A DNA stretch of 64,000 nucleotides from Candidatus Woesearchaeota archaeon B3_Woes. Lineage in GTDB: Archaea; Nanobdellota; Nanobdellia; Woesearchaeales; B3-WOES. Below the pieces are notes generated by a model. The model saw only the letters and a list, made by a program, of their open reading frames with translations, made no database searches and was not told the origin of the DNA. Below, piece by piece: positions 4,363 to 61,906 of this stretch. Both the position numbers and the translations under genes were made by a program. Location: contig NJBG01000001.1 in NCBI GenBank assembly GCA_005222965.1, forward strand, positions 1 through 64,000, written 5' to 3'. The stretch's first letter is position 1; the number at the start of each line of letters is the position of its first letter.

Positions 4363-5562
4363 TTATTCCTCATCCTCGTCTTCTTCATTCTCTTCGTCAT
4401 CATCTTCCTCATCACTTTCGTCATCATCTGCTTCCTCCTCATCAATTACTCCTTCATTTGCTGAAAGTTTTATTTCTCTTAAGATCTCTTTTAAAGTTCT
4501 ATGAGCTTCTTTCAGATTTTGTTGAGCCTCTTTCATAATGCTATTAGCTTCTTTCATAAGGCTTGACACATCACCAGAATCTTTTACTTCGTCATATTTT
4601 CCTCTAGCTTGTTCATAATTTCCTTTTGCTTCATCAATTTTTGCTTTAAACTCATTAACAAGCCCTTCTGTTGAACTGGTGTCATACCCTTTTTCTTCCA
4701 TCTTTGTTAAAATTCTGTCTAATTTTATCTCAAGATGCTCTGATTTTACAATTATTCCATGTATTTTAGCATTAGCTAGTCTTCCAACACTTACTTTAGC
4801 ATGTGTTTGAGCTTTTTTCCATGTATTTTTAATTGTTAAAGCAGCTTCTTTTATTTCTTCATCAGAACTGTTTTCATCCAAATCTTCAATAACTTCTCTT
4901 TCTTCTTCAACTTCAGCTATGCTCTCTTCAATTTTTGCTAATCTTTCCTGCTTAACATCATCATCCAAATTTTCAGCAGCTTCTAATCTTTCTTTTAATT
5001 TTTCTAAATAATTCAAAACCTTATCATCTGAACTTATTAAGAAATCTTTTGAATGTACTTTAATCTCTTTTCTAACTTCTTGGCATTCTTCTGATTCTTC
5101 ATCACACTGTTTTACTCTTTCTCTTACTTTAGTTATGCTTTGCTTTGCACTTAAGTAATTATTTTTAGCTTCTTCAACATCTGCTCTTGCTATTTTATAC
5201 TTTCCTCTTACTTGCTCAAGCCTTTCTTTTGTTTTTTCATTTACTTCTAAACCCTCTCTTGCAGGCATTATTGCTTTTGGTCCATTTCTTTTAATTACAA
5301 CCCCATCACTATCATAACCTACCTCCTCATCTTTAGCAACTGGCCAATCATCTGTTACATTTATTCTAACTACAACCCCATCACTATCATAACCTACCTC
5401 CTCATCTTTAGCAACTGGCCAATCATCTGTTACAGATAATGCTCCTACAACATTTCCAGTTATTTTATTTCCTCTACCTTCATTCTCTTGTTTAGCCATT
5501 GCTAAAGGTGCAACACTTAATACCAGCATTGCCATAATCAAAATTGCCATTATTTTTTTCAT
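4363..5562 (-). CDS. Exported acidic coiled-coil protein with a tandem repeat
   Basis: 399 residues. Signal peptide at 1-23 (IMAILIMAMLVLSVAPLAMA). Residues about 43-92 hold two almost identical 25-residue copies of VTDDWPVAKDEEVGYDSDGV. The rest to about 375 is a long charged helix (likely coiled coil), followed by a tail made almost only of Asp and Glu. GGGAGG lies before the ATG. Probably an envelope-associated or calcium-binding structural protein; I do not know the family. Confidence 0.75.
   Translation of the reverse strand: MKKIMAILIMAMLVLSVAPLAMAKQENEGRGNKITGNVVGALSVTDDWPVAKDEEVGYDSDGVVVRINVTDDWPVAKDEEVGYDSDGVVIKRNGPKAIMPAREGLEVNEKTKERLEQVRGKYKIARADVEEAKNNYLSAKQSITKVRERVKQCDEESEECQEVRKEIKVHSKDFLISSDDKVLNYLEKLKERLEAAENLDDDVKQERLAKIEESIAEVEEEREVIEDLDENSSDEEIKEAALTIKNTWKKAQTHAKVSVGRLANAKIHGIIVKSEHLEIKLDRILTKMEEKGYDTSSTEGLVNEFKAKIDEAKGNYEQARGKYDEVKDSGDVSSLMKEANSIMKEAQQNLKEAHRTLKEILREIKLSANEGVIDEEEADDDESDEEDDDEENEEDEDEE
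5297..5434 (-). repeat. Perfect 75-bp-period tandem duplication inside an exported-protein gene
   Basis: The 63 bases 5297-5359 recur without change at 5372-5434. The period of 75 bases is exactly 25 codons, so the frame is kept. Identity at the third codon positions means the duplication is recent. Confidence 0.9.
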
Positions 5563-9642: not shown

Positions 9643-11469
9643 ATGGCAATTACACCTCAACACATAGCAATAGGAACCTTATTCCAAAATCAATTTACAT
9701 TCCAAGTTCCAAAATATCAGCGAAACTTTACATGGGATGAAAACGATTTATCAGACTTCTTCGATGATCTTGAAAAATGTTATCAAGTTAGAATAAATGA
9801 GAATACAAGACATCATTTTTTTGGTGGTGTTGTAAGTATTAAACAAGAAATTCCTGGCTCATCACGTCAGCTTTTTGATTTGGTTGATGGACAGCAACGT
9901 ATAGCCACATTTATTATTTTTATGTCTACTATAATTTCTATCACAGAAGAATTAGCTCAAGAAGCAGATGAACAAAATGATAATGAAAATAATAAGCTTG
10001 CAAAAGAACGTGTTAAAAAGTTAACAAGTTTATATATTAAATTTAAAGACGAAATTAATCGTAAAATCATTGAAATTGATCGCTTAGAATTATCTTTACC
10101 AGATGAACCATTTTTTAAAGACTTAATCAATAACAATTCCCCAACTCCAGAAAGAGATTCTCATAATAGATTAGAATACGCATATAAATTCATAAGTGAA
10201 AAATTAAAAAATATTTTAAATGAATTACAAGATATACCATCTAAATTAGATGCATTAGAAACGTTCCATCAAGTAATTTTACAAGATTGCACTATTATTC
10301 ATATTGTAACAGAATCAAAAGACGAAGCATATAGATTATTCCAAGTTCTAAATGATCGGGGAACATGTCTTACTGAAGGAGATCTTCTGAAAGCAAGAAC
10401 ATTGGAATTATTAGATCTTGAAATTCATAACGCAAAACAAGACGCAGTCTTACGTCGTTGGAATAAAATTATAGCAGACCACCCTGATCAAACAGAGAAA
10501 TTCTTAAGATGGTATTACTCTTCCGTTAAGGGAAAAAGACCTAGCAAAACAGATCTGTTTGACGATTTTTTAGATAATTTTTTCCCTCAACACAAAAAAG
10601 AAGTAGACCAAATTACTGGAGCAGACGCAACCGCAATATTGAATTCAGTTAATAACTTTGAAAAAGAAATAATAATTATGCGTAAATTAATTGAAGGAGA
10701 TTGGCCATATAGTAGCACCACTCAAACACCTTCATGGAATAAAGAAAGACTTAGACTGTTAATAGTAGATCTGAAACACACCCATTGTATCCCTTTTTTG
10801 TTAGCGGCCCGTAAATTAGATCACCATAAATTTTCAGAAATAGTTCATCTTGTAGAAAGATTCTTTTTTAGATATAAATTAATGTGTAATGCACACATCG
10901 GCCAATTAACTAAAATCTATTTTGAACAGTCACAACTTATCAGAGCAAACCCCAGCACATATGATATAAGTACACTTAGATCGGAATTAAATTCATTACA
11001 AAACTCAAAAGCACAAGATGAGTTATTTGTAACACAAATGTCCGCAGAATTAAATTACAATGTTAATAAAACCAATAAACCCCTTAAGTATTTTTTAATG
11101 ACTATTGAACATTATTTTAAATGGTATATTGAAGGATCTACAGGAGACCCTCAATGCGAAAACTTAACAAGGGTGTTTGATTTTGCTAATACAACAATTG
11201 AACATATATACCCTCAGAACGCAACAGGTAATGTAATTCAGGCACAACTAGAAGAATTAAAACATAATATAGGAAATCTATCATTTTTAGGAGAAGAGGA
11301 TAATAATACTGGCGCTAATGACACTTTTAATACAAAAAAATCAATCTTACAAACATCTTCTGTGTTAATGAACAATAAAATTGCAGAAAAGTCATCCTGG
11401 GATAAAAATGCAGTAGAGGAAAGAAGAGACTTGCTTTTAGATCTTGCTCTTAAAGTTTTTTCTGCTTAA
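9643..11469 (+). CDS. DUF262/DUF1524 nuclease (GmrSD/SspE-like)
   Basis: 608 residues. The N-terminal DUF262 (ParB/Srx-like NTPase) has VPKYQRNFTWDENDLSDFF at 23-41 and the nucleotide motif DLVDGQQRIATF at about 80-91. The C-terminal DUF1524 His-Me finger nuclease shows TTIEHIYPQN (about 520-530) and HNIGNLSFLGEEDN. Both domains look intact. Relatives include the modification-dependent enzymes GmrSD and BrxU, and SspE, which is stimulated by DNA phosphorothioation. It converges with an operon for a PAPS-reductase-like enzyme and a GHKL ATPase, which makes a joint defence role likely. No DNA methyltransferase is nearby. Confidence 0.88.
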   Translation: MAITPQHIAIGTLFQNQFTFQVPKYQRNFTWDENDLSDFFDDLEKCYQVRINENTRHHFFGGVVSIKQEIPGSSRQLFDLVDGQQRIATFIIFMSTIISITEELAQEADEQNDNENNKLAKERVKKLTSLYIKFKDEINRKIIEIDRLELSLPDEPFFKDLINNNSPTPERDSHNRLEYAYKFISEKLKNILNELQDIPSKLDALETFHQVILQDCTIIHIVTESKDEAYRLFQVLNDRGTCLTEGDLLKARTLELLDLEIHNAKQDAVLRRWNKIIADHPDQTEKFLRWYYSSVKGKRPSKTDLFDDFLDNFFPQHKKEVDQITGADATAILNSVNNFEKEIIIMRKLIEGDWPYSSTTQTPSWNKERLRLLIVDLKHTHCIPFLLAARKLDHHKFSEIVHLVERFFFRYKLMCNAHIGQLTKIYFEQSQLIRANPSTYDISTLRSELNSLQNSKAQDELFVTQMSAELNYNVNKTNKPLKYFLMTIEHYFKWYIEGSTGDPQCENLTRVFDFANTTIEHIYPQNATGNVIQAQLEELKHNIGNLSFLGEEDNNTGANDTFNTKKSILQTSSVLMNNKIAEKSSWDKNAVEERRDLLLDLALKVFSA

Positions 11470-37655: not shown

Positions 37656-37895
37656 GCTTTTAGTTCACCATAATCTTATAGGCACAAATAGTTTATATTC
37701 TTTTTGTTTTTATAAAAAATATAAGAAGAATACTACAATCTTACAAAAAAACCGCAAGCTTTATAAATGGATGTAAAGTTCTTGAACTATGCCAGAAAAA
37801 TGATTCTATAGTCTTATTGCTATCATGTCATAGCTATAACTATGGAGGTCGTAATCAAGCCCTGGTAGTGTAGTGGTTATCACGAAGCCCTGTCG

Positions 37896-37922
37896 GTTTA
37901 AAGCTCAAAAATTAAAACAGTA
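37896..37922 (+). other. tRNA-Asp intron 1 (position 37/38)
   Basis: 27 bases. Bulge-helix-bulge is textbook: outer helix GAAGCC/GGCTTC, central 4-bp helix CTGT/ACAG, bulges CGG (left) and TAA (right), inner helix TTTAA/TTAAA. Cuts after the second base of each bulge give the loop CTGTCGA. Confidence 0.92.
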
Positions 37923-37943
37923 AGGCTTCGACCCGGGTTCAAC

Positions 37944-37966
37944 AAAACAAGAGCTTAATTTGAAAG
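37944..37966 (+). other. tRNA-Asp intron 2 (T-loop, position 59/60)
   Basis: 23 bases inside the T-loop. TTCA pairs with TGAA near the intron end, the right bulge is AGT, the left ACA. Cuts after the second bulge base give TTCAACT, exactly seven bases. The inner helix is weak, so the motif is of the relaxed type. Confidence 0.85.
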
Positions 37967-38029
37967 TCCCGGCCAGGGCGTTTAAAATTACAGCGTGTTT
38001 AAATTCACAAAAATAAAACTCATAAAAAA

Positions 38030-41640: not shown

Positions 41641-41744
41641 ACCATGAAAATCAAAGATTTTCAGGGTGCAACAAAATCAAAAGATTTTGTGCACAAGAAA
41701 AGCGAAGCTTTTCTTTGTGCCAAAAATCCGGAGGATTTTTAAGC
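41641..41744 (+). repeat. Array of four palindromic elements between rpoB' and rpoA'
   Basis: Stems: GAAAATC/GATTTTC (41646-41662), CAAAATC/GATTTTG (41672-41689), AGAAAAGC/GCTTTTCT (41696-41714), AAAAATCC/GGATTTTT (41722-41740), with loops of 3-4 bases. Outer stems, set off by a one-base bulge, also pair: GTGCA/TGCAC for the second, GCACA/TGTGC for the third. The array fills the whole spacer. Related elements lie in and after argS. Confidence 0.9.
41644..41742 (+). CDS. Possible 32-aa ORF made of the palindromic array
   Basis: ATG 41644 to TAA 41740-41742 reads MKIKDFQGATKSKDFVHKKS, then EAFLCAKNPEDF. Each palindrome gives a K-x-K-D/E-F-like unit. The stop is 2 bases before the rpoA' start. 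It may be translated between the two subunits, or only reflect that the elements keep frames open. No known family. Confidence 0.3.
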   Translation: MKIKDFQGATKSKDFVHKKSEAFLCAKNPEDF

Positions 41745-44474
41745 ATGGCTAAAAAAGAAACAAAGGAAAAGGAAGTCAAAGAACCTGTTGAAGAAAAAGC
41801 AGAAGAAGTTGTTGAACCCATAGAAGAGACCAAAGAGGTTCCAGAAGTAGAAGATCTTCCAGAAGAAAAGGGTTCTAAAGAACCTGTTGAAGAAAAAAAG
41901 ATCGATTTTGAATCCCACCAACATGTTCATAAACAAATTAGGAGTATTGAATTTGGTACTCTGAGTCCTGAATTAATAAAAAAGATGGCTTCTGCTAAGA
42001 TAGTCACACCTGAATTATATGATAGAGAAGGATATCCTGTTGATGGTGGACTAATGGATATAAGATTAGGAGTAATTGATCCTGGATTAAAATGTAAGAC
42101 ATGTGGAAGTAAATTAAAAGAATGTATTGGACATTTTGGTTATATAGAGTTAGCAAGACCAATAATCCACATAAAATTTGTTAGTATAATATTAAATATC
42201 CTTAAATCAACTTGTAGAGATTGTGGACGTGTTCTAATTCCTAAAACTAAGATTGCTAAATGTTTAGATGAATTAAAAGAAGCCGAAAAAGAAAGCGGAT
42301 TAGCTGGAAGAAGGAAGAAAATAAGACAGATCATAACAAATCTTAAATCTCAAAACAAATGCCCTTATTGTCAAGTTAAACAACAAAAAATAAATCTTGA
42401 AAAACCATCAACATTTATTGAAAACGAAAAAAGAATAAGCCCAATAGAAGTTAGAACAAGACTTGAAAAAGTTACAGATGATGATTTATCTTTATTCGGG
42501 ATAAATGCAAAAGTAGCAAGACCTGAATGGATGGTATTAACTATAATGGCAATACCACCGGTAACAATGAGACCTTCTATAACTCTAGAATCTGGAGAAA
42601 GAAGCGAAGATGATCTAACACATAAAATAGGAGATATCGTAAGAATAAATCAAAGATTATTTGAAAATATAAATGCAGGAGCTCCTGAAATAATTATTGA
42701 AGATTTGTGGGATTTATTACAATACCATGTTACAACTTTCTTTGATAATGCTGTTGCTCAACTGCCACCAGCAAGGCATCGTTCAGGACAGCCTCTTAAA
42801 ACAATAACAGAAAGAATAAAAAGCAAACAAGGAAGAATAAGGCAAAATTTAGCTGGAAAAAGAACAAATTTTTCTTCCAGAACAGTTATTAGTCCTGATC
42901 CTAATCTACAATTAAACGAGGTTGGAGTACCTATGGAAATTGCTACAATCCTAACAGTACCAGAAAGAGTCACTGAATGGAATATAGAATATCTTAAGGG
43001 ATTTATTAAAAGAGGATCTCATGTTTACCCTGGAGCAAATTATGTTATAAGACCTGGTGGAAAAAAGAAAAGAATAACAGAAGAGACAAAGGAGGCAAGC
43101 CTAGAAGAGATTGAACAAGGTTATATTGTTGAAAGACACCTATTAGATGGGGATGTTGCAATCTTCAACAGACAACCATCTCTTCATAGAATGTCTATGA
43201 TGTGTCACAAAGTAAGAATCTTAGCTGGTAAAACATTTAGATTAAGCCCAGCAGTATGTAATCCTTATAACGCTGATTTTGATGGGGACGAAATGAACCT
43301 GCATATTCCTCAAACAGAAGAAGCGAGAGCAGAAGCAGAAATTTTGATGCAGGTTCAAACTCAACTAATTTCTCCAAGATATGGTCTTAGTGTAATGGGA
43401 TGTAAACAAGATGCCATTAGTGGTAATTATATCCTAACCACAAATAATTTCAAAATGAAAAGAGATGATGCTGTTGATTTATTATATAACCTTGGTATAA
43501 ATAATTTCTCAAAATTACCTAAGAAAAAAGAAGTTAGTGGTCAGGAAGTATTTAGTACACTCTTACCTGATGATTTTGATTTCAAAGGAACAGATAGGAC
43601 AGGTAAACCTGTGATAATTAAAAATGGTGTACTTAATGAGGGTTGTGTAATTGATAAAAATGCTGTTGGAGAAGAAGCAGGACTTATTCTAAGAGCATTA
43701 CACAAAAAATATGGTGCAGATGACGCTGTAATTATTATCAGTAATATATTTAGATTGGGAATTGGTGTTTTATTAAAAAATGGATTTTCAATCACATTGT
43801 CAGATACAGATTTACCTAAGAACGCAAGAGAGGAAGTCGATGAAATATTCACAAATGTGAAGCAAGATGTTCAAAATTTAATTAATTCTTATTATAAAGG
43901 AGAATTAGAAGTATTCCCTGGAAAAACAGCATCTGAAACACTAGAACTAAGAATTTTAGAGTTATTAAATAAAGAGAGAAATAAAGTAGGACAGGTTGTT
44001 ATGGATTATTGTCATAAAGGAACATCTTCAATTATAATGGCTGATAGTGGGGCTAGGGGAAATTCATTAAATTTAGCACAGATGGCAGCTTGTGTTGGTC
44101 AGCAGGCTATGCGTGGTCAAAGAATTACTAAAGGTTATAACAAAAGGACTTTGTCTTCTTTCAAAAAAGGAGATTTAGGTTCTGAATCTCATGGATTTAT
44201 CCAAAATGGGTTCAAACAAGGATTAAATCCTTTTGAATTCTTCTTTGGATCAATAACAGGTCGTGACAGTCTTATGGATACTGCTTTAAGAACACCTAAG
44301 TCTGGTTATCTCTATAGAAGATTATCCAACGCTTTGCAGGACCTAAAAGTAGAGTATGATCATACAGTAAGAGACGCAAGCAAAAAGATTATTCAATTTA
44401 AATATGGTGAAGATGGTGTTGATGTAAGTAAATCAGAAGAAGGAGTAATAAATGTTGATAGAGTTATAAAATGA
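41745..44474 (+). CDS. rpoA1: RNA polymerase subunit A'
   Basis: 910 residues from ATG 41745. Zinc sites [20 protein letters not shown] and CRDCG/CPYC, bridge and active site [20 protein letters not shown] (three catalytic Asp), [19 protein letters not shown]. The N-terminal 57 residues are a Glu/Lys/Val/Pro-rich extension not found in usual RpoA'. Start chosen at [10 protein letters not shown] after GGAGG. Stop overlaps rpoA'' by 4 bases. Confidence 0.97.
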
Positions 44475-60118: not shown

Positions 60119-61873
60119 ATGGACCAATTTAAAGAACATATCATTAAATTATTAAAAAAAGAGACAAAATTAAGTGATATCAACCTTGAAATACCTCCAT
60201 CTTCAGAATTAGGAGATTATGCTTTTCCTTGTTTCGTACTATCGAAAAAATATAAAAAAAATCCAAATGAAGTAGCACAAGAACTAACTAAAAAAATAAA
60301 GCTGGATAAAACAATTAAAGAAGTAAAAGCAACAGGACCCTATCTTAATTTCTTTGTCAACAAAGAAAAATTATCAGAAGACGTTCTAAGAAAAATATCT
60401 AATGAAAAAGAAAAATATGGTATTCAACCAAAAACAAATAAAACAATCCTAGTTGAATATCCTGGTCCAAACACCAATAAACCATTACATTTAGGTCATG
60501 TAAGAAACATTTCTTTAGGTTATTCTCTATGTAATCTTCTCAAAGCAAACGGTCACAATGTAGTTGTAGTAAACATAAACAATGATAGAGGAATACAAAT
60601 CTGTAAATCAATGTTAGCATATAAAAAATGGGGTAAAAATGATTCTCCTGAGACCCAAGAAAATAAAAAATTTTCTGGGCACCGAAAATCCAAAGGATTT
60701 TCTAGTGAATCAAAACTTAAGTCAGATCATTTTGTAGGAAAATACTATGTGATGTTTGCTAAAAAATCTAAAGAAAACCCGAAACTAGAGGACGAAGCAA
60801 AAGAATTATTAAAAAAATGGGAAAAAAGAGACAAAGAAACAATTGAATTATGGAAAAAAATGAACAAATGGGCTTTAGATGGGTTTAAAGAGACCTATAA
60901 AAAGTTTGATATTAAATTCCAAAAAGAATATTTCGAAAGCAGCACATACAAAAAAGGAAAAGAGATTATTTTGGATGGATTAAAAAAAAGGGTGTTTAAA
61001 AAAGATGAAGATGGCGCAGTATTTGTCGACTTAAACAAACAAGGGTATGGAAACAAAATTCTTTTAAGAGCAGATGGAACATCTGTATATATAACTCAGG
61101 ATATCTATTTAGCAAAAGAAAGATATAAAGATTTTAAGTATGATAAATCAATCTATGTTGTTGCAACAGAACAAATCTATCACTTTAAAGTTTTATTTGA
61201 AACTCTAAAAATTCTAAAATTTCCTTTTGCAGATAAATGCTATCATTTTGCATATGGGATGGTGAATCTAACAACAGGTAAAATGAAATCAAGAGAAGGT
61301 AGTGTTGTTGATGCAGATGATTTAGTAAATGATATGATTAAATTGGCTCTAAAAGAAACAAAATCAAGAAATAAAGATATAGATGAGAAAGAGCTAAAAA
61401 AGAGAGCAGAAAAAATAGCAATGGGCGCAATAAGATTTTATATTCTAAAATATGATTCAACAAAAGATTTTACATTTAATCCAAAAGAATCAATATCATT
61501 TGAAGGAGAAACAGGACCATATTTACAGTACACATATGCCAGAATAAACTCAATACTAAAAAAATACAATAAAAAGATTGAAAATAAAGCTGATACCTCT
61601 CTGTTAAAAGAAAAAGAAGAACTAGAACTAATAACAACACTAAGCAATTTTAATGATGTTGTTAAAACAGCAGGAAAGAACTATAAAATACATACTATAA
61701 CGAGGTATCTTCTGGACTTAGCTCAGGCATTTAACAACTTCTACCATACCTATCCTGTGCTTAAAGCAGATGAAGAACTAAAAAAAGCAAGATTATTATT
61801 GATTAGTTGTGTAAAACAAGTCATAAAAAATGGTTTAAATCTTTTAGGTATTGATGTCCTCAAAAGAATGTAA
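60119..61873 (+). CDS. argS: Arginyl-tRNA synthetase
   Basis: 584 residues. Arg-N domain (GDYAFPCFVLSKKYKKNPNE), HIGH region EYPGPNTNKPLHLGHVRNIS, NNDRGIQICKSMLAYKKWG, the class Ia core with MVNLTTGKMKSREGSVVDAD (KMSKS equivalent KMKSREG) and the anticodon-binding end with FNNFYHTYPVL and a normal final M. Residues about 178-200 (PETQENKKFSGHRKSKGFSS) are an extra loop made by two palindromic elements, between WGKND and KSDHFVGKYY where other enzymes have a short link. Confidence 0.96.
   Translation: MDQFKEHIIKLLKKETKLSDINLEIPPSSELGDYAFPCFVLSKKYKKNPNEVAQELTKKIKLDKTIKEVKATGPYLNFFVNKEKLSEDVLRKISNEKEKYGIQPKTNKTILVEYPGPNTNKPLHLGHVRNISLGYSLCNLLKANGHNVVVVNINNDRGIQICKSMLAYKKWGKNDSPETQENKKFSGHRKSKGFSSESKLKSDHFVGKYYVMFAKKSKENPKLEDEAKELLKKWEKRDKETIELWKKMNKWALDGFKETYKKFDIKFQKEYFESSTYKKGKEIILDGLKKRVFKKDEDGAVFVDLNKQGYGNKILLRADGTSVYITQDIYLAKERYKDFKYDKSIYVVATEQIYHFKVLFETLKILKFPFADKCYHFAYGMVNLTTGKMKSREGSVVDADDLVNDMIKLALKETKSRNKDIDEKELKKRAEKIAMGAIRFYILKYDSTKDFTFNPKESISFEGETGPYLQYTYARINSILKKYNKKIENKADTSLLKEKEELELITTLSNFNDVVKTAGKNYKIHTITRYLLDLAQAFNNFYHTYPVLKADEELKKARLLLISCVKQVIKNGLNLLGIDVLKRM
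60651..60708 (+). repeat. Two palindromic elements inside argS
   Basis: Stem 1: AGAAAAT/ATTTTCT (60658-60676, loop AAAAA) with outer CCC/GGG. Stem 2: GAAAATCC/GGATTTTC (60684-60702, loop AAA) with outer CAC/GTG. Same build and A/T pattern as the array at 41641-41744. The insertion keeps the argS frame open. Confidence 0.85.
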
Positions 61874-61906
61874 TTCTTTTGGGACACAAAAAATCTTTGA
61901 TTTTTT
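61855..61906 (+). repeat. Two palindromic elements over the argS stop codon
   Basis: Stem 1: CAAAAGAAT/ATTCTTTTG (61861-61881, loop GTA) with outer TGTCC/GGACA and one bulged T. The argS stop TAA at 61871-61873 is within it. Stem 2: AAAAAATC/GATTTTTT (61888-61906, loop TTT) with a short outer ACA/TGT. Same build as the other copies. Confidence 0.8.

Follow-up and report, generated by a model that had tools for sequence, protein, structure and literature searches.

A probable in-frame copy of a dispersed double-hairpin palindrome family in the argS gene of a woesearchaeotal archaeon

The nearest known kinds of element to the one described here are bacterial, namely the head-to-head dimers of CGTC-tagged REPs, the Rickettsia palindromic elements (RPEs) and the REPINs, with CGTC-tagged REPs being the closest by description. 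CGTC-tagged REPs, which include Rickettsia RPE-4 and RPE-6, possess a stem of 8-9, a CGTC tag often changed to TGTC and no dedicated transposase, occur mostly as head-to-head dimers, and have intragenic in-frame copies adding about 20-30 residues (PMC3733652). REPINs have been described as extragenic (PMC3116915). Among bacteria, insertion of palindromes in frame into conserved genes is already documented (Rickettsia RPEs, CGTC and GTAG REPs). For archaeal genes, the open-access literature, with few subscription papers covered, gave no report of such palindromes, and a survey from 2025 that dealt with REPs of both bacteria and archaea addressed only the intergenic regions of selected phyla, with no mention of DPANN, Woesearchaeota or Nanoarchaeota (PMC12306157).

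In the window (the whole stretch of woesearchaeotal DNA that was analysed, 64,000 nucleotides), the host gene argS (60119-61873, plus strand) encoded an arginyl-tRNA synthetase (ArgRS) of 584 aa, as indicated by its translation, by the Pfam domains tRNA-synt_1d, DALR_1 and Arg_tRNA_synt_N, and by its PDB relatives 2zue and 1bs2. Protein alignment and AlphaFold modelling located an in-frame insert of ~54 bp, or 18 aa, at 60655-60708 (plus strand; exact ends ambiguous by a few bases), corresponding to residues 180-197 (QENKKFSGHRKSKGFSSE). It appeared as one clear insert between WGKNDSPET and SKLKSDHFVG and was missing from all 28 ArgRS relatives with coverage, which belonged to the same order; in the closer relatives, TPExxxx was joined directly to KSDHFVG. 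The initial annotation had proposed an insertion of about 20 residues at this site, and the clean indel in the alignment bears it out, with a length of 18; conservation of the loop in distant ArgRS relatives was also looked for, and the loop was not conserved. In the AlphaFold2 model of ArgRS (17 sequences; mean pLDDT 91.8), the sole segment with a pLDDT below 50 was residues 182-197, located between two helices, and the insert is predicted to form a surface loop that is the only disordered segment of the enzyme.

Two palindromic stems had been read inside the argS frame, and folding recovered both. Hairpin A (60654-60679) paired CCC-A-AGAAAAT with ATTTTCT-GGG (3' side ATTTTCTGGG) around the loop AAAAA, with a 1-nt bulge on the 5' side, and hairpin B (60680-60707) paired CAC-C-GAAAATCC with GGATTTTC-TA-GTG around the loop AAA, with a 1x2 internal loop. 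In each, a loop of 3-5 capped an A-rich inner stem, which a small bulge or 1x2 internal loop separated from 3-4 bp of outer stem. Among synonymous-codon shuffles of argS that kept the protein constant, two such hairpins occurred at the insert site in 7 of 2000. Against the covariance model of the family described below, the argS copy scored E=0.01 (60654-60705) when searched within the gene with filters off, and it was not recovered by the genome-wide covariance-model search of its own genome. It is a degenerate or divergent member of the family, whose membership rests on build, insert size, frame, this local E-value and modest peptide similarity. The stems had also been given the same build as an array between the rpoB- and rpoA-type genes (41641-41740). 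This array did fold into four such bulged hairpins (41641-41667, 41671-41690, 41691-41720 and 41722-41740), with family-model matches of E=0.021 at 41645-41693 and E=0.76 at 41718-41762. The argS copy, of the same build, is itself divergent. Besides this array and the argS insert, the window contained one more element, a double hairpin (61855-61906) that spans the stop codon of argS.

From the contig as a whole (1,000,545 bp, 30% G+C), about 15 double-hairpin elements were collected, and the folded set showed one common architecture. Single hairpins were not enriched genome-wide relative to shuffled sequence. Adjacent hairpin pairs in which both scores were at least 17 numbered 11, compared to 0-2 in order-3 Markov shuffles, an enrichment that was weaker with a bulge-tolerant score. 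The best covariance-model matches in this genome were dphB (E=1.7e-12), 834366, the U32 gene, 987881, 362107 and uS13, and several copies were located just 3' of genes, among them argS and a tRNA-synthetase-like gene ending at 362111.

The initial annotation had suggested looking for the argS peptide elsewhere in the proteome. Inserts of this kind, with a related CQKSKISEHAQK-type peptide, did occur in the genome, and at least five further in-frame inserts were verified, in the genes encoding diphthine synthase (dphB), a U32 peptidase, a CxxCxxCC protein, a kinase and ribosomal protein uS13. With argS included, the inserts in these six conserved genes were 17-24 residues long and always in frame. 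The dphB insert (CQETKFPEHDRKSGFPT) was present in none of 29 relatives, the U32 peptidase insert (CQKSKISEHHQKKEKFFLR) in none of more than 20, that of the CxxCxxCC protein in none of three and that of the kinase, about 24 residues long, in none of 24. In the AlphaFold model of the dphB product (mean pLDDT 80), insert residues 65-80 were predicted to be disordered and formed the only disordered segment. The similarity of the argS insert peptide to the other inserts was modestly significant (shuffle p = 0.05 for the summed score; p = 0.009 against the dphB insert), and 20 of 20,000 proteome windows scored as high; part of this similarity is compositional, and the peptide comparison is not the main argument.

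The 18-residue uS13 insert (C1, 711938-711991) was lacking in 28 of 29 relatives, the exception being a genome of another family (G012) that carried an element at the identical site. The two elements shared an A.C mismatch and showed paired differences when their DNA was read by eye, which suggests common descent. Such a pair makes it possible, as few others do, to follow the evolution of an element within the gene of a ribosomal protein. In G012 (L340), the flanking TTTCCGACA recurred at the element's end.

The family reached beyond the window in which it was initially noted, extending to the whole order. Its unit, TGTC...GAGCA followed by TGCTC...GACA, was mostly 50-57 bp and consisted of two inverted hairpins with TGTC...GACA ends, a GAGCATGCTC centre and a conserved 1-nt bulge in each stem (consensus TGTCAGAAATC-NNN-GATTTCTGAGCA / TGCTCAGAAAN..NTTTCTGACA, 50-57 bp). 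The pattern TGTCARAAATCNNNGATTTYTGANCA, with at most one mismatch, was detected in 66 of 288 genomes of the order and its reversed control in none, and most of the pattern matches were adjoined by an inverted partner, with TGTC/GACA outside. The covariance model (R1) matched 78 of 118 genomes from the order; in a sample of 147 drawn across the phylum it gave 66 hits, nearly all in the same order, with four weak ones outside. When 84,980 species genomes were scanned for exact 26-mer matches, 79 contig stretches were recovered, 76 of which belonged to Woesearchaeota, Nanoarchaeota, Pacearchaeota or unnamed archaeal MAGs. The double-hairpin family hardly occurs outside this one order of DPANN archaea, and identical or near-identical copies were present at several loci within a genome (e.g. 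G098). The remaining three stretches of the 26-mer scan (L111, L134 and L171) came from two Ca. Methanolliviera MAGs, which do not belong to DPANN, and may represent transfer or binning contamination. In two MAGs, composite elements were observed, with the double hairpin inside longer near-identical repeats whose outer ends were palindromic (e.g. CCACCACA...TGTGGTGG; stretches L114, L117, L153, L175 and L184, and L128, L131, L156, L173 and L182). As for viral carriage, three exact patterns gave 0 matches in IMG/VR, and no clean orthologous empty-site pair was found in 20 regions within genus g39.

Across 23 aligned copies, which had been chosen for good stems, two-sided changes occurred in 12 of 22 pairs (59 cells) and one-sided changes in none. 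For hairpin 2 in 81 covariance-model copies (871 scored cells), 821 cells were Watson-Crick, 12 were G.T, 12 were A.C and 26 were others. When arms change, both partners of a pair almost always do so, and across the family the covariation describes two hairpins.

Compared to CGTC-tagged REPs, the archaeal family had similarly short hairpins (inner stems of about 7-9 bp), a terminal TGTC, many stem variants, a predominance of head-to-head dimers, intragenic in-frame copies and no dedicated transposase. However, the tag of CGTC-tagged REPs is unpaired, whereas the archaeal TGTC paired with a GA-G-CA tail (TG-CA, TC-GA) across the conserved bulge in 23 of 23 aligned copies; the tail was GAGCA/TGCTC instead of CCA, and the loop mostly 3 nt instead of 4-5, this length being fixed by the search pattern in hairpin 1 and variable in hairpin 2. 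The published CGTC-tagged families are bacterial and the present one is archaeal. Since neither the unpaired tag nor the CCA tail, both of them defining features, is present, membership in the CGTC-tagged REPs is not established. Like the Rickettsia RPEs (PMC10969869), the family consists of palindromes in a reduced genome that lie in intergenic DNA as well as in frame within genes, where they encode a recurrent peptide, whereas RPEs, compared by description only, are ~150 bp long (PMC10969869) and the archaeal doublets are 50-57 bp and belong to another domain of life. The parallel with RPEs drawn in the initial annotation thus applies to in-frame palindromes in an archaeal synthetase and does not extend to confirmed membership of that family, given the differences in size and tag pairing; the archaeal elements nevertheless appear to work like RPEs and CGTC-type REPs. 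With REPINs and BIMEs (PMC3116915), the family shares an inverted palindrome doublet, compensatory arm changes and repetition within a genome, but, unlike those associated with a RAYT, it was accompanied by no RAYT/Y1 gene in the genome studied here and showed no linkage to Y1 genes elsewhere. The mitochondrial double-hairpin elements of Allomyces, as cited in PMC7218506, are similar by description in having two consecutive hairpins, in being putatively mobile and in needing no coding capacity, and belong to organelle genomes.

In-frame copies were also present in other species, in genes encoding a Hint-type protein, a DUF371 protein, Trm1, a Bud32-type kinase and a PIN-like protein, the names Hint and PIN being interpretations of the sequence and not Pfam matches. 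The 57-bp element of a Bud32-type kinase (L112:5898-5954) lay in frame between the catalytic loop (HGDLTTSN) and the DFG motif. When the translations were read, the central part was in one frame (E-H-A-Q-K type) in 11 of 11 inserts, and a second, hydrophobic frame (S-M-L-R-N) was also often open. All eight clear-ended coding copies had lengths divisible by three, compared to 18 of 60 others (p = 0.0002), a difference that is partly ascertainment, since an intact domain on both sides requires a multiple of three.

Our main reading, to which we give a probability of roughly 0.85, is that the argS insert is a degenerate in-frame copy, presumably translated, of a dispersed family of double-hairpin palindromes (REP-like doublets) nearly confined to one order. 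The copy would probably have reached argS in the form of single-stranded or hairpin DNA, and would have been joined without target-site duplication by an enzyme activity acting in trans. It may then have survived owing to a length that is a multiple of three, a stop-free hydrophilic frame (...KSxxSEHAQKS...) and a surface loop that tolerates an unstructured stretch; more generally, genic copies would persist only where the frame is kept, stops are avoided and the site is a loop. The arms would be kept complementary at the DNA level, through fold-back copying or quasi-palindrome correction, and not by RNA selection. A MITE of a DNA transposon would combine terminal inverted repeats with a target-site duplication. 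Here the TGTC/GACA ends are inverted repeats; no obvious target-site duplication was seen by eye at the clean inserts of U32 (TGTC... between AAA and GAT) and uS13 (54 bp between ACA and TTT), and the CxxCxxCC gene showed a possible TGAAA duplication, also by eye. A missing target-site duplication would fit single-strand insertion of the IS200/REP type.

One version of this reading names the enzyme, the doublet being a REPIN moved in trans by a RAYT or IS200-type Y1 transposase. Its inverted doublet of bulged hairpins, the lack of an obvious target-site duplication and compensatory arm changes as in REPINs (PMC3116915) agree with such a mover, and elements were present in 33 of 40 genomes with the Y1 family PF01797 compared to 45 of 78 without it (Fisher p = 0.008, uncorrected for phylogeny), a weak association. 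However, PF01797 had no match in the element-bearing genome studied here and was missing from 10 of the 19 genomes that had 15 or more model hits, copy number did not differ clearly with its presence (p = 0.09), and only one clear but weak family-model match was found near 35 Y1/TnpB loci, the elements otherwise not flanking Y1 genes. We regard this version as unlikely, and a Y1 transposase is unsupported as the mobiliser. TnpB was rejected as well, as it exceeded the cut-off in just 4 of 118 genomes. In another genome (G062, C112 10655-11084), a Y1 transposase match was split around a double hairpin (10815-10866), which seemingly had inserted in the transposase gene.

Somewhat less likely still is a local inverted duplication, in which the hairpins were made in place by fold-back (template-switch) copying with no transposed unit. 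The double hairpin at the argS stop codon (61855-61906; family model E=0.12 genome-wide and 2e-4 within the gene) speaks for it, as folding showed a left arm made of conserved host coding sequence (DVLKRM and the stop) and a right arm that was its complementary copy, and argS of G001 ended GATGTTCTTGAAGAGATGTAA with no hairpin there. This suggests possible fold-back copying of host sequence, by which arms could be copied locally, and the arms also varied widely among copies yet were almost always fully paired. Conversely, the TGTC/GACA ends, the GAGCATGCTC centre and the bulge position were conserved in many species, and near-identical copies at separate loci need a copied unit. The stop-codon hairpin and the facts of dispersal, taken together, therefore favour a dispersed REP-like unit whose arms may be kept or remade through fold-back copying.

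That the insert is an ordinary lineage-specific protein loop, with DNA stems arising as a by-product of A/T-rich K/S/F codons, is strongly disfavoured. The 30% G+C of the genome, in which single hairpins of such strength were no commoner than in shuffles, and the partly compositional peptide similarity would be compatible with it, but paired bulged hairpins were rare among the synonymous shuffles at the site, and the same structure lay exactly at the inserts of the dphB, U32, CxxCxxCC, kinase and uS13 genes and also between genes. An RNA-level element (a spliced intron, a terminator or an mRNA-stability hairpin) is the least credible of all, for although archaea have short bulge-helix-bulge introns and several copies lay just 3' of genes, the clear-ended coding copies were all multiples of three (in part by ascertainment) and stop-free in one frame, which splicing does not need, G.T and A.C mismatches were equally rare in hairpin 2, and Rfam gave no family match in the window or in four element-bearing loci, reporting tRNAs only.

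As argS, uS13 and a diphthamide enzyme of a 1.0-Mb DPANN genome were all hit, the family provides a natural experiment on selfish DNA becoming protein. A broader proposal, which we advance tentatively and hold to be possible though doubtful, is that archaeal miniature mobile palindromes spread order-wide without an IS200-type transposase, rewrite their arms by fold-back copying and are a general source from which core proteins, a ribosomal protein and a tRNA synthetase among them, gain disordered segments in frame. The elements are a lineage marker usable on metagenomes, and the covariance data set could serve to tell whether palindromes are maintained at the DNA or at the RNA level. At element sites, spurious inserts and false small ORFs are to be expected in annotation.

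Two other features were observed in the window. The segment at 37859-37981 (plus strand), which was not reported by ARAGORN or Rfam, read by eye as a tRNA-Asp (anticodon GTC) with two insertions, the first of which follows the anticodon while the other lies in the T loop, and is likely a tRNA with two introns. At 5278-5427, two tandem 75-bp repeats, 93% identical, were located inside a minus-strand ORF (4363-5562).
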